The translations under genes were made by a program, and so were the position numbers. The notes beneath the pieces are model-generated. The model was not told where the DNA came from. It was given only the letters and a program-made list of their open reading frames with translations, and did not search any database. Shown one piece after another: positions 1,906-28,880 of a DNA stretch of 64,000 nt (positions within the stretch are counted from its first letter, which is position 1; each line of letters starts with the position of its first letter). Origin of the DNA: Terrimicrobiaceae bacterium (GTDB lineage: Bacteria; Verrucomicrobiota; Verrucomicrobiia; Chthoniobacterales; Terrimicrobiaceae); contig JAJTZA010000038.1 in NCBI GenBank assembly GCA_021463905.1, positions 1-64,000 on the forward strand. The letters run 5' to 3'.

Positions 1906-2850
1906 TTAGCGCATTGAGTCCACCGTCTTTCTCTCTCCTTTGTATTTCGCAGCGGATTCAAAGAACCTAAGTTGTTCTATCTGTTGAGAAGTGGACTCTT
2001 CGTAGTCAGTTGCATAGTTGGTGATCAATGCCTCCAACATCGGATTGCGGTTATCTTCCCTCGCGCCGACGTGATAAAAATGCTCGCGGGTCTGAATGTG
2101 ATATGGGCGCCAAATAGAATCAATGAACTGGTTCGCTCTGTATTCGTTGCTGTGCCACGTCGATAGAATGAACCGAGCTGATGTGGTCTCAAGATGAGCG
2201 GCTAAATCCCGCTCGTTGCTCTCGTCCCATCCATTGAAGTAATCAGCATGACGATCAATGTAGGGCGGATCGCAATAAATGAAATCGCCATCACCTGCGG
2301 CGGAAATCGTTTTGTCATAGTCCTGATGGATGAACTCATAATCTCCGCAAGCGATGGTATCAGCAACGGCCTTGACCTGGTTGCAAATTTTTGTGATGTA
2401 AGCCTGAGCAAATCTGTTGGGCTTGCGGCAAAACGGAACATTGAATCCACCCTTGCGGTTGAATCGAATCATTCCGTTAAAGCAGGCCCGATTCAGGAAT
2501 AAAAAGTCGATAGGATCGCCATGCTGGTTGAATCGCTCGCGAATGTTGTAGAAATGTTGCCCCTCGGTGCGGAATAGCTCAGCCCCCTCATTCTCAAGAA
2601 ACTGTCTCACACTACCGGGTGAGATCGAGCCATCGGCAATCGCCTGATAGAGTCGGATTAAATGCGGATTCGAGTCAGCGAGAAGCACGCGCTTCGGTCG
2701 CAAATTGAAGGCTACGACTCCCGAGCCCATGAACGGCTCAATCCACCTGCCGTTGAAATCATCGGGGACAAGTGCTCTGATCCAAGGTACCAACTTGGTC
2801 TTAATGCCTTGACACTTAATAGGCGGAACGATTGTGCGAAAATCGCTCAT
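1906..2850 (-). CDS. D12-class adenine-specific DNA methyltransferase, M.EcoRV-like
   Basis: PPIKCQGIKTKLVPWI...EPFMGSGVVAFN...FLFLNRACFNGMIRFNRKGGFNVPFCRKPNRF...DFIYCDPPY; close to recalled M.EcoRV sequence; 4-bp ATGA overlap with the restored endonuclease frame. Confidence 0.93.
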   Translation of the reverse strand: MSDFRTIVPPIKCQGIKTKLVPWIRALVPDDFNGRWIEPFMGSGVVAFNLRPKRVLLADSNPHLIRLYQAIADGSISPGSVRQFLENEGAELFRTEGQHFYNIRERFNQHGDPIDFLFLNRACFNGMIRFNRKGGFNVPFCRKPNRFAQAYITKICNQVKAVADTIACGDYEFIHQDYDKTISAAGDGDFIYCDPPYIDRHADYFNGWDESNERDLAAHLETTSARFILSTWHSNEYRANQFIDSIWRPYHIQTREHFYHVGAREDNRNPMLEALITNYATDYEESTSQQIEQLRFFESAAKYKGERKTVDSMR

Positions 2851-3673
2851 TCTACGTTTCTGCGTGGGACAATCAGAGAGGTGTCTCCGCTACGATATCG
2901 GACGAAATCCTCAAGAGAAGTGATTTTCGCGATTTTTCCTCCAGCGATCTTAGTCGTGATCTTGCCGTAGTTCATCCAGTAGTCATCAAACCAATCTTCT
3001 CCCAACTTCGAAAACATGCCCTTCCCAGAAAGTATACACCTAATTCTCTGAATGCTTCCGATATTTGGGGAATCCCCGATCCACCCTTGTCGCTCGCAAT
3101 CCGCCATTTTTCCGCGACGAAGAATTGGATATTAGAGATAGCAGAAATAATTGATTGAAGCTCATCAAGCGGACACGATCGGGTCTCGTCAATAGTCGCG
3201 TCCTCGGCGCGATCATAGATGATGCCCAAACAAAAATGGCCCGAGTAGGAGGCATAGGGAAACTGGATGTTCTTAGTGCTTGTTCTGTCTTGGAAATACT
3301 TGCCGTGCGATCCAAGAGTGAAGCCATTGCAGAGCCAAGGTTTATCAGGTTTGCGGTAGGTTGTTTTGAAGTCAATCGCAAACTTCACTGACTCGTCCGC
3401 TTTGAGGACAAAGGAGATGTCGGGGTAGTAGTTCTGGTGTTCGGCGAGCACTACGGCAAAGCCCTGCTCTTCAGCAAACGCGAGAATTTTTGGGAACAGG
3501 TGAATCTCCAGAATTTTGGAAACGATCTTGGTGTCAGATGAAATCGTATAAACGTTGCGGAAAGTGTCGATGAAGCCCTTTACCGTCCATTGACCATCAT
3601 CGGTGCTTACGTGTTTTGTAAGGGTTTTTGCGAAGGTCTTTAGGGACTTTTCAAATTGGGATTTTGTGGTCAT
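2847..3673 (-). pseudogene. EcoRV-family type II restriction endonuclease, single -1 frameshift near 3069-3074
   Basis: N-terminal frame (2972..3673) has SDTKIVSKILE, YPDISFVLKADESVKFAIDFKTTY (EcoRV PD...DxK core), FTLGS, TKNIQFPYASY; second frame (2847..3107) has NIGSI...GKGMF...DDYWMNY matching the EcoRV C-terminus. Adding one G in the GGGG run joins them into about 275 codons. Confidence 0.88.
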
Positions 3674-25130: not shown

Positions 25131-27877
25131 CCGGCCAGCCGGAACCCGTTTCAGGAACCGCCAGCCTGCGGCAGCAGGCACTGGGCCACGACGAGCCAAC
25201 GGCGGTCTTCAAGGGGTTCCGCAAAACCGAGGAAGACCGCCTGCGACTGGCCCATAAAAATGGGGGCGGTGGGCGCGAGGTGGCGCGTCAGCGTTCGGAA
25301 ATGGTGGACGTCCTGCTGCGGGAGCTGTTTTCGCACATTCTGGCGCGGCATGCTCCCCGGGGGCTTCCCGAGCCGGTGGTCGTGGCGGCGTTTGGCGGAT
25401 ATGGCCGCCGCGAGCTGAGTCCGTTCAGCGATATTGACATCATTTTTTTGCATCCGAAATCCAGGCTGTCGCCGGTGGCCGAGGAGTGTATCCGGCAGAC
25501 CCTGACCGCGCTGTGGGACATCGGATTCAAAGTGGGTCATGCGACGCGCTCCCTCCGGGATGCGCTCAAAACCGCCAATGAAGACCTGGTCGTGAAAACG
25601 TCCATGTTGGAGTGCCGCTTCCTGGCGGGAGACCGTGAGCTTTTCGCCAGCTTCCGCAAGCGTTTCGAGCGCGAGTGTGTCCAGGGCCGTGAGGCCGCCT
25701 ACATCCGGTGGCGGCTGGACAATCAGGCCAGGCTTCACGCGAAGTACGGGGGCAGTATTTTCATGCAGGAACCGCATTTGAAAAACGGGGTGGGGGGATT
25801 GCGGAGCTATCAGAACCTTCTTTGGCTGGCCTATTTCAAGGAGCGTGTGATGACCCCCGCAAAGCTGGTGGAAAAAAAGATCCTGCGGGATGCGGAGCGC
25901 AGGAATCTCGAGACCGGCTACGATTTTTTGTTACGGACGCGCACCGCGCTGCATCATCTGGCCGGGCGCTCCTCGGATTTGCTGACCCTGCAAATGCAGG
26001 GGCGCGTTGCGGCGGCCCTCGGCTACCCGGAGAAACACATCCTGCGCCGCATCGAGGCCTTCATGCGCGACTACTACACCCATGCCCGACAGATCGCCTT
26101 TCTCACCACGGCGGCCACCACGCGCCTGGAGGTCATTCCTGAAACACCCCGCCCGCGGTTGCTCGGCTTTTTACAGCCTCGTGCCGCGCGGTTTGACGGA
26201 TTCCTTGCCAAGGGTGGCAGGTTGTTTCCGGAGTCTCCCAAAGCACTCGCCGCCGACCCGTTCCGGATGATGCGCGCCTTCCATCACGCCCAGTCGCGAC
26301 ACCTCGGGCTGAGTGGTGAACTGCGCGATGCCATCCGCAACCGCCTCTCCAAGGTGGACACCGCCTACCAATACGCAACCCCACCCCGCGAGACATTCCT
26401 GAACATCCTTTCCCGAAAGGGGGAAGTGGGGCGCATCCTGCGGGAGATGCACACGCTGGGCTTCCTCGGAACCTACATCCCTGAGTTTGGAGACCTGACG
26501 TGCCTCGTTCAGCACGAATTTTACCACCGCTACACAGCCGACGAACACACGCTGGTCTGCATCGAGAAACTCGATTCCGTGCTTTTCAGCGAAGATGTCC
26601 GGTTTCGGGGCTACCGTGCGCTCCTGCAGCAATTTGAAGACCCGGCGATCCTGTACCTCGCAATCCTCCTCCACGATATTGGCAAGGCTGCCAACAAGCG
26701 TCACCACGAGGACATCAGCGCCACCCTGGCGGACCGCGTGGCCCACCGCCTCCAGCTCGCCCCCCAACGCCGCAAAATGCTCGTCACTCTCGTCAATGCA
26801 CACGGCGAAATGAGCGCGGTGGCCCAGAAACGCAATTTGGAGGATCCGGCGACCATCAGGCAATTTGCGGGTATCGTTGGCAATAAGGCCAATCTGGATG
26901 CGCTGATGCTCGTCACTCTGGCCGATGGGATGGGCACCGGAGATGAAAAATGGTCTGACTGGAAGGAAACGCTCGTCTGGACGCTCCACCGCAATACCGC
27001 CCAATACCTCGAACGCGGAGAGGAATCCCGCGACGCTTCACATCTCAACATTCGAAAGTTGCGGGATCAGGTGGCCGAACTCCTCCCGCCGGATTTCACG
27101 GAAGAAATTTCCGCTCACTTCGAGTTCATGCCCGACCGCTATTGGCGGATGTTTGAGGCGGAGACTGTCGCCGGCCACCTGCGGCTGTTCCGTGACTTTT
27201 TGGGAAATCATCTCCGCTCGGAATCCGGCGCCCTGACACCCGCACTCCATTGGATTGCACACCCGGAGCTGGGCCACAGCGAGGTCTGGGTTTGTGGATG
27301 GGATCGCCCGCGGCTTCTCGAACGAATCGCCGGCGCCTTTCTCTCCTGTCATATCAACATCCTCAGCGCGGATATTTTCACGCGCAGCGACAATCTCGTG
27401 CTGGATTGCTTCCATGTGGACAACTCCACTCTCTCCGCCATCAGCGCAAAAGAAATGGCCCGCGTGGAAAGCCGCCTCGTGGAAAGCCTGCGCGTCGAGA
27501 TGTATGATTTCACCCCGCTGCTGGGACGCGCCGCGCGGCTGCGATCCTACCGAATTTCGCAGGAGGCCGATCTGCCAAGTGTGATCTCGGTGAGCAATTC
27601 CTCGCATCCTGTGTACACACTGGTGGACATCCAGACTCCCGACCGTCTGGGGCTGCTCTACGGGATTCTGCGGGCACTGGGAGAAGCGGGAGTCAATATC
27701 GAAACGTCCCGGATCAGCACGGAAAGGGATGTGGCTCTCGACAGCTTCTATATCACAGGAAAAAACGGGGGGAAGGTGGCGGACGCGGCGGCTGTTCGCC
27801 GCCTCCAGCTCCTCCTCGAAGGCGTTTGCGACGCGCCCCGCGACGAACCCCCTCCCGCTACTGAAGCTCGAAGTTAA
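25127..27877 (+). CDS. glnD: [Protein-PII] uridylyltransferase / uridylyl-removing enzyme
   Basis: [25 protein letters not shown] nucleotidyltransferase, [21 protein letters not shown] domain, two C-terminal ACT-like segments; ATGA overlap with upstream gene. Confidence 0.94.
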
Positions 27878-28880
27878 TGTTCACTGTGTAAGCACCCCCA
27901 TCGCCCAAGCCCGGCGGCAGCGGGTCAATCTGCCGCACCTTCTCCAGGGCCGCCTCGACGGACTGATCCATCACCGCATTCGAACTGCCCTGAATGATTT
28001 TTGCCGAGGTGATCCTGCCATCCTTCTCGATGCGGATTTGGACGGTGCAAATAAATTGATGGCCAGGATCAAAAATCGAAACCGGCTGATCCCATTGGCT
28101 GAAAAACCGGTCGTGGATCAACTCATGGTACCACGCAAACTCCGACGGATCCCCCTGACCCACCGACTTTTTTGCCGCACCTGATCCCTTGGCTGCGGCA
28201 CCCGCCCCCCCGCCACCCGAGTCACCCTTCGCGCCAGAACCCTGATTGGCAGACGAACTGCCTTCCTTTGTGCCTGCGTGAGATTTGGACGGAGATGCGC
28301 CGGGGTGCGGTGTCGCCTTGGCTCCCTCCTTGGCTTGAGGCTTGGAATCTGCTGATTGGGATTTGGGTTTCGGTGTGGATTTCGTCTCTGGTTTTGGTGT
28401 CGGCTTGGGGGTGGATTTCGGTTTCGGCTTCGGCGTCGGTTTTGGCGTCGGTTTCGGTGTTGGCTTGGGAGTAGGCTTCGGCGTTGGTTTAAGTGTTGGT
28501 TTCGGTGTTGGAGTTGGCGTCGGCTTTGGCGTTGGTGTCGGTGTTGGTTTCGGAGTGGGCGTTGGCGTTGGAGCTGGCAAGGGAGTTTCTTCTTCCGGTG
28601 TCGGCTCTGGTGTCGGCTCTGGTGTCGGCTCTGGTGTCGGCTCCGGTGTCGGCTCCGGTGTCGGCTCCGGTGTGGGTTCGGCAGCGGCTGACTGTCCGTC
28701 TGAAGCGGCTGATTGGAGGGCGGTGGCGGAGTCCGAAAAGGCACCTGCGTCCATCCATACCACCTCGCCTGTCGGTTTTTTTACTTTCGTAGAGCGCGCA
28801 AAAAACAAAATCGCACCAATGACGATAATGTGCGCCAAGGCGACAAGGATCAAATTTTTGCGGAACCGCCTCTCCTCCAT
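27858..28880 (-). CDS. TonB/TolA-like energy-transducing protein with long Pro-Thr-Glu/Lys spacer
   Basis: N-terminal TM, (PTPEPTPE)n/(PTPKPTPK)n spacer, C-terminal [49 protein letters not shown]. Confidence 0.88.
28597..28680. repeat. 12-bp in-frame tandem repeat (GGTGTCGGCTCY)x7 in TonB/TolA-like spacer
   Basis: Seven consecutive 12-bp units read directly, last one diverged; flanked by further degenerate PTP-coding repeats to about 28370. Confidence 0.9.

Follow-up and report, generated by a model that had tools for sequence, protein, structure and literature searches.

Results

An EcoRV-like endonuclease gene in two frames beside an intact methylase gene

The analysed window, which is the whole 64,000-nucleotide stretch of the Terrimicrobiaceae contig, carries on its minus strand two neighbouring genes resembling the EcoRV restriction-modification (R-M) system. 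The endonuclease homologue is spread over two reading frames. Frame A (2972-3673) encodes 233 amino acids, of which the N-terminal 200 are EcoRV-like and the last 33 unrelated. The missing C-terminal part lies in frame B (open reading frame 2847-3107), where homology extends from about 3076 to 2847. Both frames exceed the curated cut-off of 25 bits of the Pfam profile PF09233 (Endonuc-EcoRV), frame A at profile positions 2-179 (E 6.9e-88, 294.6 bits) and frame B at positions 178-243 (E 2.3e-19, 70.2 bits). On the EcoRV structures in the PDB, residues 13-184 are covered by frame A and residues 182-238 by frame B. The two halves abut on the profile as well as on the structures, in line with an earlier reading of the DNA from its letters alone (the sequence-only reading), which had assigned the gene to the EcoRV family, described the second frame as EcoRV-like and proposed that the frame is lost at a single point. 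Its position for this point, about 3069-3074, was right to within a few bases. The catalytic residues of EcoRV, D74, D90 and K92 (PD...DxK), correspond to D85, D101 and K103 of frame A according to the alignment to the PDB structures and a blastp comparison with R.EcoRV. The frame is lost after residue 200, equivalent to EcoRV Gly184, inside the DNA-recognition loop.

Joined, the two frames comprise 276 codons including the stop, and their end overlaps the beginning of the methylase gene (2850) by the four bases ATGA, as had been predicted. The present endonuclease frame stops about 120 bases upstream of the methylase start, so that any translational coupling from endonuclease to methylase would be lost.

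The second gene (1906-2850, minus strand, 314 amino acids) encodes a D12-class adenine methylase, and its earlier description as intact was confirmed. The frame is uninterrupted from 2850 to 1906, the DPPY motif is present, and the protein matches PF02086 (E 6.1e-48), TIGR00571 (dam, above cut-off) and the PADLOC profile MTase_II (E 8e-133), which together place it among the type II D12-class M.EcoRV-like methylases. No other PF02086 gene was found in the assembly, which is 72% complete. Based on its 59% identity over 278 residues to M.EcoRV of plasmid pLG13 (blastp), the enzyme probably still methylates GATATC and would thus be a solitary methylase. A methylase 67% identical to it is encoded on the viral contig IMGVR_UViG_3300035034_000461 (1-6915). 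An EcoRV-like endonuclease is absent from these 6.9 kb, and this solitary viral methylase perhaps serves self-protection.

The frame is continuous in relatives

To compare the locus with related genomes, as the sequence-only reading had proposed, one genome per species was scanned. This revealed 149 encoding relatives. Eighty of them were retained, and adding one relative from viral contigs and another from the same taxonomic family gave the 82 that were examined. Seventy-five are full-length single frames that could be aligned, six are broken, and the one from the same family was excluded as a longer form. The latter (G007:C2, about 995917-996750) is an open frame of 369 residues with matches to profile stretches 1-153 and 139-243 and an insertion between them. 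In all 75 aligned relatives the frame runs continuously through the junction point, which supports the earlier suggestion that the restored frame is the ancestral one.

A methylase homologue follows directly downstream on the same strand in all 82 cases (running off the contig in L015 and L081), and many relatives have the same four-base overlap, e.g. L005, L006, L008, L009, L010, L012, L013, L017, L031, L032 and L047. The six broken endonuclease genes are interrupted at other points, by frameshifts in L007, L017, L069 and L077 and by in-frame stops in L057 and L078, and their methylases are uninterrupted. Some of these breaks may be sequencing errors.

A probable small complex lesion in the recognition loop

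At the junction, the intact relatives read Gly-Ser-Gly-Asn-Thr-Ala-Asn-Ile-Gly-Ser-Ile with very few exceptions, as seen in a comparison of codons, whereas bridging the two frames of the window gives Gly-Ser-Gly-Asp-Ser-Pro-Asn-Ile-Gly-Ser-Ile. Asn, Thr and Ala occupy the three junction columns in 74/75, 75/75 and 75/75 relatives, respectively. A leave-one-out analysis of conservation identified 103 columns with at least 97% conservation; the window departs from four of them, and three of these are the adjacent junction residues. The protein accordingly has the profile match and catalytic residues of the EcoRV family (PF09233) and lacks the continuous frame with the GSGNTxNIGSI loop. Since the frame is lost at this loop and Asp-Ser-Pro appears when it is bridged, the gene, judged from its sequence, appears to be a broken, non-functional member of the family, i.e. 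a pseudogene.

The lesion (3066-3077, minus strand) combines a net loss of one base with altered Asn-Thr-Ala codons and leaves the palindrome GGGGATTCCCC (3077-3067), which a palindrome scan recorded with a length of 11 bases. On the minus strand it consists of GGGG (3077-3074), ATT (3073-3071) and CCCC (3070-3067). The sequence-only reading had explained the break by one base lost from the G run. This simple -1 deletion is probably wrong, because restoring the base leaves Asp-Ser-Pro in place of Asn-Thr-Ala, and with three near-invariant residues altered a single lost base is an insufficient explanation. The smallest account would be a net loss of one base together with two or more substitutions in a stretch of about nine bases.

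Both of these substitutions would lie in the second arm of GGGGATTCCCC, making it pair fully with the first. In E. coli, template-switch mutation at quasipalindromes perfects imperfect inverted repeats (PMC7202029). As the substitutions affect one arm and complete the palindrome, a more tentative proposal is that template switching at an imperfect inverted repeat produced the lesion. However, 20 of the 75 intact relatives also have palindromes with five-base arms within the same 40 bases, so that the palindrome on its own is weak evidence for such an origin. A broader version of this idea, in which the loop codons of the EcoRV family (GGN AAY ACN GCN) form imperfect inverted repeats and constitute a hotspot of template-switch mutation, is very unlikely. 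If it were true, EcoRV-family enzymes would be prone to a loss of activity or a change of specificity at the recognition loop.

Evolutionary rates were compared between the two parts of the protein using branch lengths on a fixed tree. In the window's protein, the rate of the C-terminal part relative to that of the N-terminal part was slightly raised (rank 5 of 76 tips); an increase as mild as this does not prove that the gene decayed after the break. Synonymous sites are saturated between the relatives in pairwise dN/dS comparisons.

Alternative explanations for the split frame

A sequencing or assembly error, in which the gene of the cell is intact and the consensus of a metagenome-style assembly is locally wrong, is an unlikely candidate. 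The genome is fragmented (157 contigs, 72% complete) and, with a G run on one side of the lesion and a C run on the other, the sequence context is awkward. Yet a lone lost base would leave its neighbours normal, and three adjacent near-invariant residues are altered. Tiling of the 64-kb window, moreover, showed no other broken frames: suspicious same-strand overlaps proved to be complete separate genes, and a 1.1-kb gap contains a full TonB-like open reading frame. Thus, of the sequencing-error option in the sequence-only reading, the plain homopolymer error is weakened by the altered neighbouring codons, and an assembly error is retained at the low probability given above. The product of the open reading frame at 27858-28880 (minus strand, 340 amino acids) is TonB-like in its C-terminal part and contains a long repeat rich in Pro and Thr (PTPKPTPKP).

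Programmed -1 frameshifting at the G GGG run, which would yield little full-length endonuclease and keep restriction low, is very improbable. A tRNA on GGG could re-pair exactly one base back, and a 91-nucleotide stretch spanning the site can fold, but the fold is no better than that of shuffled sequence (z -0.76). All 75 relatives in the alignment use a single frame, so that the split is not an ancestral programmed frameshift, and a full-length product would carry Asp-Ser-Pro instead of Asn-Thr-Ala in the loop. As neither a conserved two-frame layout nor a stimulatory structure was found, the classification as a programmed -1 frameshift gene was rejected.

A run of four to five G is short for phase variation. 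Frameshifts by length changes of poly(G) or other repeats are known in methylase genes, e.g. in Mycoplasma agalactiae (PMC9465063), and a comparable switch at the G tract had been among the options of the sequence-only reading. Here, the run has only four bases, the loop codons are altered beyond it, and the frame restored by one base still carries Asp-Ser-Pro at three near-invariant columns. The gene was therefore not classified as phase-variable, and we regard phase variation as extremely unlikely. Just as little probability is given to two separate pieces that assemble into a split enzyme, frame B starting at its own ATG (3107) 33 bases ahead of the junction, since no aligned intact relative is split at the same place and the junction carries abnormal loop residues.

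Origin of the cassette

The cassette has a GC content of about 48% compared to about 61% in both flanks. Within the taxonomic family, the PF09233 domain was detected in only 2 of 26 genomes; within the order, 3 of 213 genomes gave a match, which was weak in one case. The nearest relative belongs to a Gemmatimonadetes assembly (84% identity), and the relatives most similar to the window's gene come from other phyla. Taken together, the deviating GC content, the patchy occurrence and the relatives in other phyla are most naturally read as horizontal acquisition. A syntenic empty insertion site was not found in the same family, where the genes flanking the cassette were not found next to each other in relatives; in G007 they are far apart. 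No second or near-identical copy was detected in the own genome, in the 213 genomes of the order (protein level), in 384 genomes of the class (DNA level) or in viral contigs.

We also analysed the frequency of the putative recognition site. GATATC occurs 65 times in 673 kb compared to 105.9 expected occurrences (rank 26 of 64 palindromes), and six times in the window, where 6.35 are expected. Marked avoidance of GATATC was thus found neither in the 673 kb nor in the 64-kb window, and past restriction is consequently not confirmed. One GATATC site lies within the endonuclease gene itself (2894-2899). Several other palindromic hexamers are strongly depleted in a sample consisting of the first 20 kb of each of contigs 1-60 of G000 and the window, namely ATCGAT (7 versus 107 expected), CAGCTG (24 versus 204) and GAGCTC (36 versus 200), which may reflect other restriction systems.

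Discussion

Together, these data make it likely that the locus is a horizontally acquired R-M cassette in which the methylase persisted after a single small complex mutation in the recognition loop had inactivated the endonuclease. According to this explanation, a cassette of an endonuclease gene followed by an overlapping methylase gene on one strand would have been acquired horizontally, and a small complex mutation would then have hit the codons of the DNA-recognition loop. Translation would run out of frame after residue 200 and end after 33 unrelated residues. The truncated product would keep the catalytic strands but have neither the remainder of the recognition loop nor the C-terminal part. 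Of the 18 hydrogen bonds possible in the major groove, 12 are made by the recognition loops (R-loops) in EcoRV (PMC4081073). With the frame of the loop and everything after it lost, loss of restriction is expected: from the structure, the truncated endonuclease should neither recognise nor cut DNA.

The whole methylase would remain as a solitary enzyme. The cell comes to no harm if the endonuclease is the first to go, whereas prior loss of the methylase would expose the chromosome. Orphan methylases adjoining degraded endonuclease genes are described in PMC6471742, citing Seshasayee et al.

The EcoRV system of plasmid pLG13 has an endonuclease of the same family with the same catalytic residues (32% identity of R.EcoRV over the frame A part, blastp) and a closely related methylase (59%). 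Its methylase gene is divergent and a helix-turn-helix regulator gene stands before the endonuclease, whereas the cassette described here is an overlapping tandem of endonuclease and methylase without a regulator and with a broken endonuclease. Chromosomal EcoRV-like tandem cassettes of Gemmatimonadetes, Chloroflexi, Entotheonella, Verrucomicrobia and Proteobacteria (L005-L084) have the same gene order with the methylase directly downstream and often overlapping, and the N-terminal part of the endonuclease is 66-84% identical to theirs. In contrast to the window, almost all of these have a continuous endonuclease frame and Asn-Thr-Ala in the loop. A broken endonuclease beside an intact methylase is also what characterises the degraded R-M systems with solitary methylases in the account of Seshasayee et al. 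given in PMC6471742. Compared to the systems described there, the locus shows no difference in principle, its one peculiarity being the exact lesion in the recognition loop.

The locus is therefore an ordinary decayed R-M system, and its decay is of a common kind and not surprising. The survey provides a rough base rate for the family, with the endonuclease broken in 6 of 82 relatives and the methylase visibly broken in none. The case further indicates that the residues at a junction need to be checked before a break is attributed to homopolymer slippage or to a phase-variable switch. As such, it would represent a clean example of the decay of an R-M cassette, in which the cutting half was lost first and the protective half was kept.
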